A stretch of 38,700 nt of DNA from Methanomicrobiales archaeon (GTDB lineage: Archaea > Halobacteriota > Methanomicrobia > Methanomicrobiales > Methanospirillaceae). Both the position numbers and the translations under genes were made by a program. The first letter of the stretch is position 1, and each line of letters begins with the position of its first letter. The notes under the pieces are model-generated. The model ran no database searches. It had not been told where the DNA came from and saw only the letters and a program-made list of their open reading frames with translations. Of the stretch, positions 77-28,587 are shown piece after piece. The stretch is taken from assembly GCA_026394715.1 (NCBI GenBank), contig JAPKXR010000189.1:1-38700 (forward strand), read 5' to 3'.

Positions 77-790
77 TTACCGCTGCCTGAAACTGGCACC
101 CGTCATATTAAGAATAAGAGCCCGATGGGTGATTCGGTCAAGCAGAGCGGCAGTAAGTGCCTTATCATGAAAGATCTTAACCCATTCAGAGAACATCAGG
201 TTAGATGTTACCATCGTGCTGGAAGACTCATACCGTGATGCGAGCAGCTGGAAAAGCAGTTCTGCGCCGGGAAGATCGAAGGTAATGTACCCCAGTTCAT
301 CCAGAATCAGCAAATCCACCTGTTTCAGTAATCGGAGTGTGTAGGTCAATCGGCTGTCCCTTTTAGCCTCGATCAACTCGTTCACCAGCCCTGCAGCCGT
401 CTTGAACACCACCCTGAAATTTCCTTCACAGGCACGGATTCCTGTAGCAATAGCCAGATGTGTCTTCCCAGTACCCGAGTTCCCAATCATCAGGATATTC
501 CTGTGTTCCTCAAGGAATCTCAAGTCCTTCAATGTAGCCAGATAAGATTTCCCATCGTCCGGTAGTGCATCCACCACCAGATCATCAAATCGTTTCATTG
601 TGGGAAATCCTGCCACACGGATGGCGTTCAATCGGCGCCTGGCCATTCTGAGGTTGGATTCTGTTTCCAGTGCATGAACCAGAAATGACACAATCTCCTG
701 ATTATGGGGTGTGGGTTCGAGTTCCTGAACGCAGGACGCTATCCCGGAAAGCCGGAGTGTATGACAGAGTTCTTCGATCCGATCTGACAT
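77..790 (-). CDS. istB: IS21 transposition helper ATPase IstB
   Basis: This is an AAA+ ATPase of the IstB/DnaC type that assists IstA by binding target DNA and promoting strand transfer. The 237-residue protein has a Walker A motif GNSGTGKT at about residues 103-110 and a Walker B stretch LLILDELGY around 160-168 with D164/E165. An Arg-rich N-terminal part resembles other IstB proteins (MARRRLNAIRVAGFP), and the length is usual for the family. It starts 3 bases after the istA stop, so the two are cotranscribed and probably translationally coupled. No frameshift or missing key residue is seen. Confidence 0.95.
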   Translation of the reverse strand: MSDRIEELCHTLRLSGIASCVQELEPTPHNQEIVSFLVHALETESNLRMARRRLNAIRVAGFPTMKRFDDLVVDALPDDGKSYLATLKDLRFLEEHRNILMIGNSGTGKTHLAIATGIRACEGNFRVVFKTAAGLVNELIEAKRDSRLTYTLRLLKQVDLLILDELGYITFDLPGAELLFQLLASRYESSSTMVTSNLMFSEWVKIFHDKALTAALLDRITHRALILNMTGASFRQR

Positions 791-793
791 CCT

Positions 794-2266
794 TCAGACC
801 CCCATCAGGTTATCATAGACCAAGAGGTTCGGTTCAGCCACTATAACCTCACAGGGAAGTGAGAGCGGCTCCACCATCTGGTAAGGTTGCTGCATGATGA
901 CGCACTTCAGGGTTTCATACGTGGGAACCATCTGGTGTTCTTCGAGCATCTGAATCGCAAAGATCAGACCCTCCACAGAAGACTCTCTGATAAGATTGAG
1001 AATCGGAAGAAACTCCTTCGGTTTATGGAGGTAGTACTGCTGGTATATCCGTTGAATATCTTTATGCAGCTGATGGAATGCCTTTGATTGGGGCAGTGCT
1101 CCTGGTTTCTTTCGGAACGTTTTGAGATAGTGAGAAATATCGAAAAAATGCTCGCATTTCCCAAAGTACCGGGTGTGACTTGCGATGACCTTGTCCCTAT
1201 TGACCAGTTCAAGATGATCTGGATACACCTTCAGTGTCAGGTATTCACCCCGGTGCTCATCCGGGACAGAGTAGTAGTTTGATTCAAAGGAGACGAGAGA
1301 ATAATTCGAGATATGCGCTGTTCGGGTAATGTAGTTGGAGAATTCCAAGGTTGGCAGGAGACCCAACGTATCTCGCTCGTTCTCGAGACCTTCAAACGGA
1401 ACAGATTTCCGACGATACACCGGACGCGCATTGATCTCAGCTAACTGTTTCTCAAGGTACTGGTTTGCCTCAGCAAGCGTTGTAAACGTGGTTCGCTCAC
1501 AAAAGACAGTCCTCCTGATATACCCGACAGATTCTTCATCAGTTCCTTTTTCGTGTGGCGACCGGACGTTGCATGCGTGAGGTTCAAATCCATAATGGAG
1601 TGCAAATACAAGAAACCGGGGATTCCACACTTTTGTTACGGGATCGATAATTGCTCGCATATTGTCATAAAAGATAGTCTTGGGTACTCCTCCAATCATG
1701 TTGAAGAATTCAATGTGGGCTGCGATGATCTCAAGAAGGGATTCACGGAGATAGAGACGGGAAAACCGGTAGAGGGAGTTGTTCAGGACCATGATTGCCA
1801 TCGGATACTTTCCCCAGTGGCCATCGATGCAGAGATCTGTTTTCCCCCAGTCAAACTCCGCACGGAATCCGGGTTCGGGATCCTGGAGGATAAAGACTTC
1901 CCGGTGACCATGTTCCTCTCTCCATTGTGCCATTACCCTTTTCACTGTGCAGTAACTGATGGTGTTACCCGATTGAACGAGGTGGCGCCAGATCTTCTTT
2001 CCGTTCCATCGCTGTTTCCGAGGGAGGTCCTGGTTTTCTTCAAGGGTGCGGTGGATCTTTTCTTTTACTTCCAATGTAACGACGCTGCACTGTCGCCGGA
2101 TCTGACGATCCTCTGGTATGATCTCTTCCTCGATTCCTTTTCGGACCGATTGAACGCGTTCAACATACTTTTTCACCGTGTTTCGGGATATGTTGAGTTC
2201 CTTTGCGACTTTTCTGATTGAACCATAGAGTTCATACAGTTCGATAATTCGCCGAATATCGCTCAT
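794..2266 (-). CDS. istA: IS21 transposase IstA
   Basis: This is the DDE transposase of the element. An N-terminal helix-turn-helix (about residues 15-37 of the longer reading, KVAKELNISRNTVKKYV) should bind the terminal repeats. The retroviral-integrase-like core shows FDWGKTD (first Asp), FYDNMRA (second Asp) and HEKGTDE (catalytic Glu). The C-terminal part carries the Mu-transposase-like beta domain seen in IS21 (SLVSFESNYYSVP). I chose ATG 2266 rather than GTG 2275 because an AAGGTGA ribosome-binding sequence at 2272-2278 precedes it. Length (about 490 aa) is normal and the frame is intact. It is followed at once by istB. Confidence 0.95.
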   Translation of the reverse strand: MSDIRRIIELYELYGSIRKVAKELNISRNTVKKYVERVQSVRKGIEEEIIPEDRQIRRQCSVVTLEVKEKIHRTLEENQDLPRKQRWNGKKIWRHLVQSGNTISYCTVKRVMAQWREEHGHREVFILQDPEPGFRAEFDWGKTDLCIDGHWGKYPMAIMVLNNSLYRFSRLYLRESLLEIIAAHIEFFNMIGGVPKTIFYDNMRAIIDPVTKVWNPRFLVFALHYGFEPHACNVRSPHEKGTDEESVGYIRRTVFCERTTFTTLAEANQYLEKQLAEINARPVYRRKSVPFEGLENERDTLGLLPTLEFSNYITRTAHISNYSLVSFESNYYSVPDEHRGEYLTLKVYPDHLELVNRDKVIASHTRYFGKCEHFFDISHYLKTFRKKPGALPQSKAFHQLHKDIQRIYQQYYLHKPKEFLPILNLIRESSVEGLIFAIQMLEEHQMVPTYETLKCVIMQQPYQMVEPLSLPCEVIVAEPNLLVYDNLMGV

Positions 2267-2325
2267 TTTGTTCACCTTGTCTTCCCTCCCAATCGTGTGA
2301 TAGTTCGGGAAGGATTTTTCTTGGG

Positions 2326-7207: not shown

Positions 7208-7483
7208 ATGCAGACAGTTGAGATCCATATCTCGGGAAAGGTCCAGAGAATCGGGTTCCGGAGTTGTGTGAAAAGAATTTCACAGAAACTAAACATCCGG
7301 GGCGAGGTGATGAACCTCCCGGACGGTTCAGTCCGGATTATTTCAACCGGTGACAAAATTGTGCTCGACAAATTCACTTCGATGATTTACGGGTGCCCGC
7401 GTGCGGTGATCAGAGATATGAAAATGATAGACCGGGAATTCCAGGAATTCAATGAGTTTACCGTAATAAAACCTAATACCTAA
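7208..7483 (+). CDS. Acylphosphatase-like protein
   Basis: This 91-residue protein has the compact acylphosphatase fold signature. A first strand VEIHISGKVQRIGFRSCV contains the catalytic Arg (R18), and NLPDGSV contains the catalytic Asn (N36). Known acylphosphatases hydrolyse acyl-phosphate bonds such as those of 1,3-bisphosphoglycerate or carbamoyl phosphate. The phosphate-binding loop normally reads GxVQGVGFR; here the Gly after VQ is Arg (VQRIGFR), which could alter anion binding. It is preceded by a good AGGGAGAAAG site. The gene stands alone, and a pair of T-rich repeats directly follows it. It is a family member by sequence; activity is less certain because of the loop change. Confidence 0.85.
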   Translation: MQTVEIHISGKVQRIGFRSCVKRISQKLNIRGEVMNLPDGSVRIISTGDKIVLDKFTSMIYGCPRAVIRDMKMIDREFQEFNEFTVIKPNT

Positions 7484-7968: not shown

Positions 7969-8895
7969 TTACCGCTCGATGATGTAGTCAGTTGTTTGTT
8001 CAAGGGATTCACGAAGAGCGGCAACCTGGCGGTCAATTGCATCCTGATCGATAGTCTTGTGAAATAACCGGATTAATTCTTTCATACAGGAGTCTGACAG
8101 GATGCAGCGGGCAGGGCCACATTCGTAATCCTGTTCACAGAAATCCTCCCTGATGATCCGGATCGCTTCCCTGTCAATCATATCCGCCTTAAAAGGTTCC
8201 ATGACATCATAGACCAGAGATGAGGGCCCCCGGTGTAACATACCCGTATCCGGATCAAGATTGGCACCTGTCACCGAGAACATCACATTCCCAAAGAGCA
8301 TCGCATATCCAAATGCAAGTATCGCATTCACCGGGTCATGGTAGGGCCGGTCAGTCCGCCGCCTGAATCCGAACTTAGTGGGAAGTGCACGGGAAAGGAC
8401 CTCGTAGTACATATCGGTTGTCAGACGCTCAATCCGGCGGATCTCGCTGATTTTAATAAGGTATTCCAGTTCATCCAGAGCATTCGAAAAAATCTCTGAT
8501 TCACCCTCATAATAAAGCTCCCGCCCCGCAATTTCACCAAGTCTCCCGATAAGGAGGGTTTTGGATTTCATAGAACCCCTCGCTATCGAAACAGCATACC
8601 GATAACTGGGTGCATTTTTCTGGATTTGCGAAAGCTCCGCTTCTTTTGAGTTATTAAACGGGCGTATCGTGCCAACGGGTTTACCATCTGCTTCAAAAAA
8701 TGACAACCGGGCCCCCTTTTTTACAAGGTTTGCAATAACCGGCGTATGCAGGGTATGACCACCAATAATCAAAAGGTGGCGGACGGAATCAAGCGGGTAT
8801 TCCTCAATCACTCCTTCTTTTTGTACGAACAGTGTGTTCCGTGTCGATTTGATATGAGCACCGAAACCGGCCACAACAAGCCAGGGGACATCCAC
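7969..8895 (-). CDS. cas1: Stand-alone Cas1 integrase (cas1-solo type)
   Basis: This is a Cas1-family metal-dependent integrase/nuclease. The 308-residue protein has the N-terminal beta domain (STRNTLFVQKEGVIEEYPLDSVRHLLIIGG, about 17-46) and the helical C-terminal domain. The expected active-site residues are there: Glu in MYYEVLSRAL (E165), His in MLHRGPSS (H221) and the acidic pair in YDVMEPF (D230/E233). DPVNAILAFGYAMLF and NLDPDTGMLHRG are typical Cas1 blocks. The start is GTG 8895, preceded by GGAAAGGA at 8901-8908. Strikingly, there is no cas2, no other cas gene and no CRISPR array within this window, and no PolB, so it is not an evident casposon. Solo Cas1 proteins of unknown role are known in Methanomicrobia; this gene looks like one. 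It has its own terminator and is monocistronic. Confidence 0.92.
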   Translation of the reverse strand: MDVPWLVVAGFGAHIKSTRNTLFVQKEGVIEEYPLDSVRHLLIIGGHTLHTPVIANLVKKGARLSFFEADGKPVGTIRPFNNSKEAELSQIQKNAPSYRYAVSIARGSMKSKTLLIGRLGEIAGRELYYEGESEIFSNALDELEYLIKISEIRRIERLTTDMYYEVLSRALPTKFGFRRRTDRPYHDPVNAILAFGYAMLFGNVMFSVTGANLDPDTGMLHRGPSSLVYDVMEPFKADMIDREAIRIIREDFCEQDYECGPARCILSDSCMKELIRLFHKTIDQDAIDRQVAALRESLEQTTDYIIER

Positions 8896-9245: not shown

Positions 9246-9326
9246 ATGAAAATCCGAACAGCAGCCGGGAAATCACGTACCGGCAGATCAATTCCGGGAG
9301 GAGGGGCCAGTCATGTTCTGGGATAA
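9246..9326 (+). CDS. Possible 26-codon upstream ORF
   Basis: A short frame starts at ATG 9246 behind GGGTGA (about 9236-9241) and ends with TAA at 9324-9326, overlapping the ligase start (9313) by 14 bases in another frame. The predicted peptide is rich in Arg, Gly and Ser (MKIRTAAGKSRTGRS...) and has no aromatic residue, so it does not look like an aromatic amino acid attenuator. It may couple translation to the ligase or be chance. Confidence 0.25.
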   Translation: MKIRTAAGKSRTGRSIPGGGASHVLG

Positions 9327-10602
9327 GGTTAATGAAACGCTGGCGCCTGGTGAACTGGCAAAGCTCCAGTTAAAACGGCTGAAAAAAACGTTAAACAGCG
9401 CTAATAATGTAGAATTTTACCGGAAACAATTCTCTGATGCGGGGGTCCGTGCCTCCGACATCCGTACCCTCGAAGATATCAGGAAACTCCCCTTTACAAA
9501 GAAACAGGACCTCCGGAGCGGGTACCCGTTTGGTTTTTTAGCCGTCCCACTTAACCGGGTGGTCCGGATCCATACCACCTCCGGGACAACGGGAAAACCT
9601 ACGGTAGTCGGGTATACCAGGAATGACCTGGAGGCCTGGGCACATCTTATCGCAAGAAACATGACTATGGTTGGACTCGGCGAAGAAGATGTATTTCAGA
9701 ATATGGTCAATTACGGCATGTTCACCGGGGGTCTCGGGTTCCATTACGGCGCTGAGAAGATCGGGATGGCAGTAATCCCAAGTGCAACAGGTAACACAAC
9801 GCGACAGATTGAGATGATCCAGGATTTCGGCGTCACCGCAATCCACTGTACACCCAGTTATGCCATGCACCTTGCAGAAGTCGCGGAAGAGCGGCATGCA
9901 GAATTCCCATCTCTAAAGACCGGGATCTTTGGCGCTGAGCCATGGTCTGAATCAATGAGGACAGAACTGGAAGAAAAACTCGGGGTGACGGCATATGATT
10001 CCTACGGCCTTTCTGAGTTATTTGGTCCCGGTGTTGCCTTCGAATGCGTCGAGCGTGATGGCCTTCACATATGGCATGACTACTACCTGGTCGAGATTAT
10101 CAACCCCGAGACCGGCGAGGTGCTGGGTGACGGGGAGCGGGGAGAACTCGTTGTCACACCCCTCTTAAAGGAGGCGATGCCGTTGATCCGGTACAGGACC
10201 GGGGACGTGACATTCAGGATGGACGATGGCTGCCTGTGCGGGCGTATGCAGAAAATCGGAAGAATTACAGGCAGAAGTGATGATATGCTGGTGATCAGGG
10301 GAATAAACGTATTCCCGTCACAGATTGAACACGTTCTCCTCTCCCTGCCTGAGGTTGGGAACCAGTTCATGGTATATATCGACCGGGTGAACCATCTCGA
10401 TGAGATGTCGATTGAAGTCGAATTGAACCGCGAGTATTTCCACGGCGAGCTCCAGGACCTTACCCGGATGCAGGCGAAAGTCGTAAAGGCACTGCGGGAC
10501 GTGCTTGAACTCCGGACTTCGGTAAAGCTGGTCGAACCCGGGTCTCTCCCGAGGTTTGAAGGGAAAGCAAAACGAGTCATCGATCGAAGGGGTGAGATAT
10601 AA
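9313..10602 (+). CDS. PaaK-type acyl-CoA/F390 synthetase-like adenylate-forming ligase (copy 1)
   Basis: This protein belongs to the ANL adenylate-forming superfamily, phenylacetate-CoA ligase branch (COG1541). It should activate a carboxylate (or, for coenzyme F390 synthetase of methanogens, transfer AMP/GMP to F420) using a nucleotide triphosphate. The ATP loop TTSGTTGKPT is at 88-97, GAEPWSE near 208, YGLSELFGPG near 231-240, the RTGDVT hinge region near 295 and the C-terminal core RSDDMLVIRGINVFPSQIE from 321. CLCGR near 307 is a Cys motif often found in PaaK relatives. A strong GGGAGGAGGG precedes the start. It forms a cluster with a paralogue and a double-ACT protein. Methanogen relatives are named FtsA (F390 synthetase), but aryl-acetate ligases look alike, so substrate is open. 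Confidence 0.88.
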   Translation: MFWDKVNETLAPGELAKLQLKRLKKTLNSANNVEFYRKQFSDAGVRASDIRTLEDIRKLPFTKKQDLRSGYPFGFLAVPLNRVVRIHTTSGTTGKPTVVGYTRNDLEAWAHLIARNMTMVGLGEEDVFQNMVNYGMFTGGLGFHYGAEKIGMAVIPSATGNTTRQIEMIQDFGVTAIHCTPSYAMHLAEVAEERHAEFPSLKTGIFGAEPWSESMRTELEEKLGVTAYDSYGLSELFGPGVAFECVERDGLHIWHDYYLVEIINPETGEVLGDGERGELVVTPLLKEAMPLIRYRTGDVTFRMDDGCLCGRMQKIGRITGRSDDMLVIRGINVFPSQIEHVLLSLPEVGNQFMVYIDRVNHLDEMSIEVELNREYFHGELQDLTRMQAKVVKALRDVLELRTSVKLVEPGSLPRFEGKAKRVIDRRGEI

Positions 10603-12868: not shown

Positions 12869-14158
12869 TTATCTTTTTTTCTCCCACTTTGTCAGCGCTG
12901 AAATCTGTGCCAGGGTACTGCCCCGGTGGATCTCTTCCCTGATGCGCTCCTCTGTTTTTTTCACCTCGAGGGCACGGCGGGCAACTTCATAGGCACGTTC
13001 TTTCGGCACCACGACAACCCCACTCTCATCCCCGATGACCCAGTCTCCCGGCCGGACCACCTGGCCGCAACATGAGATCTCTGCATTGATCTCACCCATC
13101 CCCTTGGGTTCACCGGCATTTGGAACAATTGCCTTGGCGAAAACAGGGAATTTTAATCGTCTGATATCATCGACGTCACGGACGGCACCATCAATCACGA
13201 CGCCTGCAATCCCTTTTACCACGCAGCTCAGTGTAGCAAGTTCGCCCCATGGGGCGACATGGGTACCGCCATCATTATTTATCACGATCACATCCCCGGG
13301 ACCTGCCAGATCAATCGCCTCGACAGGTTTTGCCCAGTCCCCCGCAAACGTCTGCACGGTAACTGCCCGCCCGATCATCTTCACATCCCCGCACATCGAT
13401 AATATACCATTCATCGCCCCTTTACGGTGCATTGCATCAGATATGTTGGGAGATGAGACCTTCTGGAAGATACTACGGACCTCTTCCCCGACCGGGAGCC
13501 CCTTTGAAACTACCTCGCCAGGCGAATCAATTGAAGCCCTTATCAGGGCGGTGCCGGATTTCACGTCTGCAGAACGGGTAATCCACCCGCCAATAATCAC
13601 GATATCGGCACCCGACCTGACAGCCTCTGCAGCGGTACTACTATCAAGACCCCCGGCAACCGCTACGGGGACCAGAAGATTCCCGGCCAGTGATGAAAGG
13701 AGGTCGATGGAATTTTTTCCGACCATCTGCTGGTCAATCCCAACATGAGCAACAATAATATCGATACCAAGGGCCTCAAGCTCTTTCGCCCGGGTCACCG
13801 GATCTCTTGTATTAATCAGGTCTGCCATCAGCCTGACACCGAACACAGACGCCGCCCTTACGGCATCGGCAATGACGGCATCGTCCGCATCACCGAGCAG
13901 GCTGACCACCGTCGCACCTGCCTTTGCGGCCATTTCAACCTCCATCGCCCCGGTATCTGCCACTTTCATATCGGCAACGATGGTCCGGTCAGGGAACTGT
14001 TTTACCAGGGCGCGGACAGCTGCCATACCCTCGCTTTTGATAAGGGGGGTGCCGGCCTCGATCCAGTCAGCACCGCCAAGAACAGATTCTTTCGCAATGG
14101 CAAGTGCCCGGTCCAGTTCTAAGAGATCGAGCGCTACCTGCAAAATAGGCTTCTTCAT
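12869..14158 (-). CDS. Fused 3-hexulose-6-phosphate synthase / RraA-like protein
   Basis: This protein has two domains. Residues 1 to about 210 form an OMP-decarboxylase-fold hexulose-6-phosphate synthase: [13 protein letters not shown] at the start, [11 protein letters not shown] near 30-40, the metal/active-site motif DMKVADTG near 63-70 and [27 protein letters not shown]. In archaea HPS runs the ribulose monophosphate pathway, making ribulose-5-P from hexulose-6-P or fixing formaldehyde. Residues about 225-400 are RraA/HMG-aldolase-like ([45 protein letters not shown]). The initiating codon is ATG 14158; the frame extends one codon to TTG 14161. No partner isomerase (PHI) is nearby. The role of the RraA part in such fusions is not known to me; RraA relatives are aldolases/decarboxylases or RNase E inhibitors. 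Confidence 0.92.
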
Positions 14159-14461
14159 CAAAAGAGGAATGTGAAGTACATGATGTTAAGGCTTACTTAC
14201 CCAAGGGAAGTTCAGGAAGACTGAGTCTCTTCCACCGGGACTACCCCATGGTCGGACATCCCGCACCGGTCCCGGCGGGGGCGCGTGGATTCGATGGTTG
14301 AGTGGGAATTAAAACAGAATTATCAATAATAACCCGGGCGGAAAAGGCATCTCTGCCAGTATGTCGTGGCATCCACCAGGCGGGAAGGGGTTGCTTTCAG
14401 AACATGGCAGAGGTCCATGCAGTGCTTCACGATAACCAGAGAAATCAGGAGAAGGGCAATT
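14159..14461. other. Intergenic region, nothing clear
   Basis: About 300 bases lie between the rhodanese stop and the HPS start. The HPS promoter should be within the part near 14160-14200. A T-rich tract on the minus strand around 14308-14330 may end the upstream transcript. No gene or RNA is recognised. Confidence 0.4.
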
Positions 14462-27402: not shown

Positions 27403-28587
27403 TCACTCAAACAGCGGTTCAATTGACTCCTGCTCAAACATTGTTGATTTTTGTCGCCGGTCAGGTTTGTATACATCATCTTTTGTCTCTTTGGCAATTT
27501 CAAGAAGTTCCCTGATGCGCGGTGCATTCCCAATACTGGCAAGCACCACCACAACGGCAACATATTCACTGTTTACCGGGTAATCTCCACCCCGGACTTC
27601 AACACCGGCGATATTCTCTTCCACCCAGCTCTTCGCCTTCTCGATCCCTTTCCGGTCAAGTTCATTCGGGGGCCCCGCAACAAGGACCAGGGCCCGCTCA
27701 GCCGTTGAAAAATCACAGGGAAGCGTAAGTCGCCCGAGCATCGCCCGTCTCACAAGCGATATGACCTTTGCAGTCCTGTCCTCACCCAGAAGGCCTTCAT
27801 CCTCGTGGCCCTTCCGGATAATTGTGTCTTTGATAGTGGTGATAAATGCACCGATATTCTTCTGTTTCTTTTTCGAAGATACGCTGCTGATTGCATACCC
27901 AACCGTCGTAATCCCACCACCCCGGAGCGTATTAATAATTTCGCTGGAGTCAACAACCATCTCGCCGACACCAAACCGCCCGGGTTCACCTGCCCGGAAG
28001 AGAATGCCAAAACGGCGTACAATTTCATCGTTTAACCGCTGAAACGCACTTTTAACACTTTCTCCCTCATTTTTCCAGGCAGAATTATCGAAAAGGAAGG
28101 TATTATCCGCCTCGTTAATGATGGTCTTCAGGCTCCTTGCGGCGTTGTAAGAATAGAGCCGCCCTTCTTCGGGAGCAGGCAGAATGCCAAGGACATAGAC
28201 AGGTTCCTGGTATATTTTTTTCAACTCTCGCGCAAGCACGGGGGTACCTCCTGATCCCGTCCCACCACCAAGCCCTGCGACGATCATAAATGCGTCCACA
28301 TCGTGTGTCCCCACACGGTCGATCGCACTCATGATGCCATCCACTTCATCAAGGGTGATCCGGGCCCCTGCGGCATTGTCTGTCCCGACGCCATGCCCTT
28401 TCACCACGGTCTGCCCAATCAGTATGCGGTCCTTCATCGGGACAATCTTCAATCCCATCAGGTCAGTCCGTGCGGTATTGACAACGATTCCCCTGAAACT
28501 CTGGGTACCGAGCCGCTTGTCCTGGGAGAGGAACATATCTACGATTTTTCCTCCCGCCTGTCCAAACCCGATGAAAAATATCTTCAT
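27403..28587 (-). CDS. CetZ-type tubulin/FtsZ-family GTPase
   Basis: This 394-residue protein is a tubulin superfamily GTPase of the CetZ (FtsZ3) type, which in haloarchaea shapes cells and supports motility. It starts FFIGFGQAGGKIVDMFL and has the G-box GLGGGTGSGGTPVLAREL at 105-122. The T7 loop reads MVVDSSEIIN, so D213 and E216 stand where FtsZ has DxxD; CetZ proteins use Glu there. Other CetZ features are RGGGITTVGYAIS and the long LPAPEEGRLYSYNAARSLKTIINEADNTFLFDN. The C-terminal tail is short and acidic and lacks the FtsZ-type binding peptide. It is the first gene of a two-gene operon with a membrane protein. Division-type FtsZ proteins should be elsewhere. Confidence 0.92.
   Translation of the reverse strand: MKIFFIGFGQAGGKIVDMFLSQDKRLGTQSFRGIVVNTARTDLMGLKIVPMKDRILIGQTVVKGHGVGTDNAAGARITLDEVDGIMSAIDRVGTHDVDAFMIVAGLGGGTGSGGTPVLARELKKIYQEPVYVLGILPAPEEGRLYSYNAARSLKTIINEADNTFLFDNSAWKNEGESVKSAFQRLNDEIVRRFGILFRAGEPGRFGVGEMVVDSSEIINTLRGGGITTVGYAISSVSSKKKQKNIGAFITTIKDTIIRKGHEDEGLLGEDRTAKVISLVRRAMLGRLTLPCDFSTAERALVLVAGPPNELDRKGIEKAKSWVEENIAGVEVRGGDYPVNSEYVAVVVVLASIGNAPRIRELLEIAKETKDDVYKPDRRQKSTMFEQESIEPLFE

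Follow-up and report, generated by a model that had tools for sequence, protein, structure and literature searches.

Cas1 is the signature protein of CRISPR systems, and the locus described here raises the question of what a cas1 gene does when it stands alone on an archaeal chromosome. The window, i.e., the whole 38.7 kb stretch of DNA analysed, harbors such a cas1-solo gene at 7969..8895 on the minus strand. An earlier note on this DNA had described it as a complete ORF with a GTG start, an SD-like site and its own hairpin terminator. The reading frame runs from a GTG at 8895 to a stop at 7969 and encodes 308 aa, and the SD-like motif AGGAAAGGA is present in the sequence just upstream of the start. 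A hairpin (CCGGG-CATTA-CCCGG) is likewise visible 3' of the stop, but the T tract starts only about 13 nt further on and the hairpin is not among the terminators called by the scan. The PF01867 (Cas_Cas1) domain spans the whole protein (E 3.1e-53) and the match to TIGR00287 lies well above the cut-off; none of the type-specific Cas1 models scored above its cut-off for this protein.

The neighbors of cas1-solo in the window are ordinary chromosomal genes, including glmM, a convergent acylphosphatase gene (7208..7483, plus strand), two genes for PaaK-type CoA ligases, one of which lies divergently upstream (9313..10602, plus strand), and genes for an EF-Tu/EF-1A-type factor, CetZ and a sulfite-reductase-like protein. 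As the earlier note had stated, repeat and ORF scans of the 38.7 kb revealed no CRISPR-like repeat or repeat-spacer pattern, no other cas gene among the ORFs scanned and no family-B polymerase (PolB); matches to PF00136 were located on other contigs of the genome (C140 and C121). The flanking inverted repeats it had named as a substrate for integration were not recovered, as no terminal inverted repeats (TIRs) were found near the gene. Apart from this, the window features an IS21-type element at its left end (77-2275, minus strand; IstB ATPase at 77-790, IstA-like transposase at 794-2275), a gene fusing an OMP decarboxylase/hexulose-phosphate-synthase-like domain to an RraA-like one (12869-14161, minus strand) and, at 27403-28587 (minus strand), the gene for the tubulin-like CetZ.

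A genome-wide scan for arrays and cas2 showed that the source genome (G000; 402 contigs, 98% complete) does possess both, but on another contig and not at the cas1-solo locus. On contig C401, one further Cas1 is encoded in a type I-C cluster, cas4-cas1-cas2, next to an array comprising five copies of the repeat GTCACACCCCTCGCGGGTGTGTGGATTGAAAT. No other occurrence of this repeat with up to two mismatches was detected in the assembly, and besides the cas genes of C401 there is one weak Cas4-like match on contig C15. Both Cas1 proteins of this genome share the PF01867 domain, although BLAST aligns only their C-terminal halves, with an identity of about 31-33%. Whereas cas4, cas2 and an array accompany the type I-C gene, the window gene has none of these at its locus, and a linkage to CRISPR is absent.

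The affiliation of the protein was addressed with a Cas1 tree of 94 proteins, comprising 53 members of Cas1-solo group 1, 31 CRISPR-type and 10 casposase-type Cas1s. The CRISPR-type label refers to arrays and, for many proteins, Cas2 at the locus, although in the segments retrieved a few (e.g., L221 and L229) had neither. The casposase-type proteins were labelled by sequence, since a simple-motif search of these loci found no PolB, and on the basis of a length of 400-415 aa, no detected Cas2 and the match of the L199 Cas1 to the casposase 6opm at 5.6e-194. Group 1 was monophyletic (100/100) and set apart from both other types, and the casposase-type Cas1s formed a clade of their own (100/100) with the window protein outside. 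Based on this tree and on 81-89% identity to its congeners, the window protein is, judged by its sequence, a member of Cas1-solo group 1 and does not group with CRISPR types. Group 1 sits at the end of a long branch (1.7 changes per column). Such a length would be expected once constraint had shifted, and it makes the exact sister group uncertain. According to Makarova et al. (2013), as rendered by Krupovic et al. (2014; PMC4046053), group 1 is restricted to Methanomicrobiales and horizontal transfer is not evident. As far as these accounts describe the group, the order restriction, the missing CRISPR link, the vertical inheritance, the separate clade and the family-wide lack of a full active site are the same here.

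Across the class, the solo gene was found in 148 of 149 genomes, including 128 of the 129 high-quality ones, and in a set of relatives it was present in 58/61, the three genomes without it being 62-78% complete. The single high-quality exception (G127, 96% complete) lacked the gene also upon a repeated profile search, which may reflect an assembly gap or a real loss. A wide score gap separates the solo orthologues (E<=6.3e-52) from CRISPR Cas1s (E>=6e-27). In a sample of 295 genomes from the phylum, the matches ended at the boundary of the order, with CRISPR-type Cas1s scoring far lower and no orthologue outside Methanomicrobiales rising above the CRISPR background; a scan of viral contigs found no relatives either. 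Cas2 (PF09827) was detected in 73/149 class genomes and absent from 76/149, a count that type I-E Cas2 would escape, as the search missed the E. coli control. Moreover, the solo gene is the sole Cas1 in 6 of 19 sampled members of the order. With about half of the genomes lacking a PF09827 Cas2 and several lacking any other Cas1, the solo gene consequently represents a core gene of the order which is independent of CRISPR.

Synteny in related genomes, whose comparison the earlier note had proposed, turned out to be conserved. At 61/80 orthologous loci, a homologue of the acylphosphatase is encoded no more than 2.5 kb from the solo gene, convergently in the main cluster; PaaK CoA ligase homologues are close at 45/81 loci, and glmM together with PaaK homologues occurs nearby at many loci. 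These shared neighbors speak for an old chromosomal position, with the acylphosphatase gene serving as synteny marker and not as operon partner. Thus, the assignment to a maintained, chromosomal first group of solo genes, neither CRISPR-linked nor a casposase, is borne out by tree, distribution and locus.

A partner gene conserved on the same strand throughout the order was not found. An operon partner was rejected, as the same-strand neighbors vary by clade (a KH-domain protein, phosphoglycerate kinase and others), some of these calls being antisense shadow ORFs produced by simple longest-ORF gene picking. Cas4 was dismissed as a partner as well, because PF01930 occurs in 101/149 genomes only and many of the matches are in very long proteins or CRISPR loci. 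In one genus (code g29; L098 7314-8935 and relatives), a gene for an archaemetzincin (Peptidase M54) abuts or overlaps the cas1-solo start on the same strand, followed in some loci by an Obg-like GTPase; an archaemetzincin/cas1-solo operon confined to this clade is possible. At 37/81 loci (e.g., L073 9231-12848), a protein of about 1200 aa adjoins the acylphosphatase/cas1-solo pair on the far side of the acylphosphatase gene; it has no Pfam match, looks like helical repeats and is absent from the window.

The active site had previously been reported as intact, which proved correct in part. Alignment with solved Cas1s and with 41 CRISPR- or casposase-type Cas1s identified the catalytic Glu as E156 (codon GAG, 8428..8430; E. 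coli E141) and not as E165 (8401..8403), located nine residues further on. H221 (codon CAC, 8233..8235; E. coli H208), D230 (8206..8208; E. coli D218) and E233 (8197..8199; E. coli D221) had been named correctly, so that all four residues, each encoded on the minus strand, are indeed present. In the 41 other Cas1s (31 CRISPR-type, 10 casposase-type) the four positions are kept without exception, with E or D at 233. Group 1, however, has lost the canonical residues at the family level. Among 152 unique orthologues, position 156 is His in 78, Ser in 30, Phe in 13 and Glu in only nine, position 221 is His in 83, and the columns 156 and 221 range near the 60th percentile of variability, about that of an average residue; D230 is kept in 151/152 and E or D at 233 in 140/152. 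A combination of H156, H221, D230 and D/E at 233 is found in 45/152 orthologues, and the complete E-H-D-E set in the window protein alone (1/152). In Cas1 structures, positions 156, 221 and 233 are the metal ligands, so that it is the metal site which has been lost in group 1, with D230 retained.

The complete set of the window protein differs from the published statement that no member of group 1 carries the full active-site complement (Krupovic et al., 2014; PMC4046053). At codon 221, the window reads CAC and differs by one base from its nearest sister; the three congeners (81-89% identity) read AAC, AAC and AAA, i.e., N or K. Assuming independent columns, about 4.5 of the 152 orthologues would be expected to combine E, H and an acid at 233 and one was seen, so that the full set needs no special explanation; given the fragmented assembly of 402 contigs, a base error at this codon is also possible.

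The gene itself is under purifying selection, as reflected by a dN/dS of 0.10-0.12 among four congeners, and other residues have become fixed. E132, R154, Y164, E165, R169 and C264 are invariant in 152/152 orthologues and R263 occurs in 98.7%; E165 is variable in CRISPR Cas1. These seven residues belong to a list of positions which are fixed to at least 95% within group 1 and rare in CRISPR Cas1, including also W5, H47, R112, M162, R179 and M239, with position 112 being Lys in the window protein. Judged by helical spacing, R154, M162, E165 and R169 share one face of the helix bearing position 156 and could together make up a novel interface or site. A structure model calculated from a three-sequence alignment was of poor quality (pLDDT 45.5).

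Several explanations could account for this pattern. An origin as casposase or casposon remnant comes to mind for a solo Cas1 in a methanogen, since casposases (Cas1-solo group 2; PDB 6opm) are likewise Cas1 homologues outside CRISPR. However, the hallmarks PolB and TIRs are missing at the window locus, the casposase-type Cas1s, which differ from group 1 in keeping E/H/D/E in 10/10, form their separate clade, and the locus next to the acylphosphatase gene is ancient; tree and gene context refute this option, to which we assign a negligible probability. An active integrase or nuclease, at least in the window species, was the reading of the earlier note and would fit the presence of E156, H221, D230 and E233. 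Such a maintained enzyme with intact site is not supported, as positions 156 and 221 vary freely, sister species carry N or K at 221, the combination is within chance expectation and neither target repeats nor TIRs were found; we regard it as very improbable, the intact site most likely being a one-species coincidence.

CRISPR integrase complexes are known to include Cas1 subunits without a catalytic role. Group 1 proteins could hence assist CRISPR adaptation in trans, as accessory structural subunits or regulators that work together with the Cas1-Cas2 of the genome, for which the type I-C cluster and array on C401 would provide the counterpart. Retention of the gene in the 76/149 genomes without PF09827 Cas2, and where no other Cas1 exists, renders this distinctly unlikely. 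Of the hallmarks of a CRISPR adaptation Cas1, the window locus lacks cas2 and an array, and group 1 lacks an active site conserved across the family. A rebuilt enzyme, in which new invariant residues (e.g., E132, E165, D230 and C264 with R154, R169 and R263) took over catalysis, would be in keeping with their fixation in 150-152 of 152 orthologues, their mostly variable state in CRISPR Cas1 and the strong purifying selection. The same charged residues could equally serve salt bridges or binding, and we consider this a minority option, though not a negligible one.

The loss of canonical metal-binding residues together with the fixation of new ones suggests that group 1 probably fulfils another, non-CRISPR job. 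We favor, with about an even chance of being right, a Cas1 devoid of metal-dependent chemistry that is vertically kept as a non-catalytic, nucleic-acid-binding scaffold on chromosomal DNA. Accordingly conceived, a Cas1 would have been acquired or split off once, ahead of the diversification of Methanomicrobiales, would then have lost its metal-dependent integrase/nuclease chemistry and would have been retained as chromosomal gene by vertical descent. Its product would be a probably dimeric scaffold with Cas1 fold, with newly fixed arginines and acids located along the helix that was once catalytic and in the C-terminal part, and could act on branched or damaged chromosomal DNA in a maintenance role independent of CRISPR. 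Nucleic-acid binding is here deduced from the fold and the arginines. In the window species, a single base change relative to its sisters would have assembled the canonical four, most likely without functional meaning. Against this scaffold count the four canonical residues of the window protein itself and the 45/152 orthologues with H156, H221, D230 and D/E233, which might still bind metal. A more far-reaching version, in which the metal site was dismantled and a new functional site (E132, R154, E165, R169, R263, C264) supports a core chromosomal function not known in other Cas1s, appears rather unlikely to us.

By family membership, the window protein is an ordinary representative of an already known group of probably retired Cas1s. 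The fixed residues listed above offer concrete mutant targets for the function of group 1, whose fate differs from the path leading from casposons to CRISPR. Near-universal among the members of an archaeal order, not dependent on CRISPR and devoid of its metal site, such a Cas1 lineage would mean that the fold of a CRISPR protein has been taken over for a job of the host.
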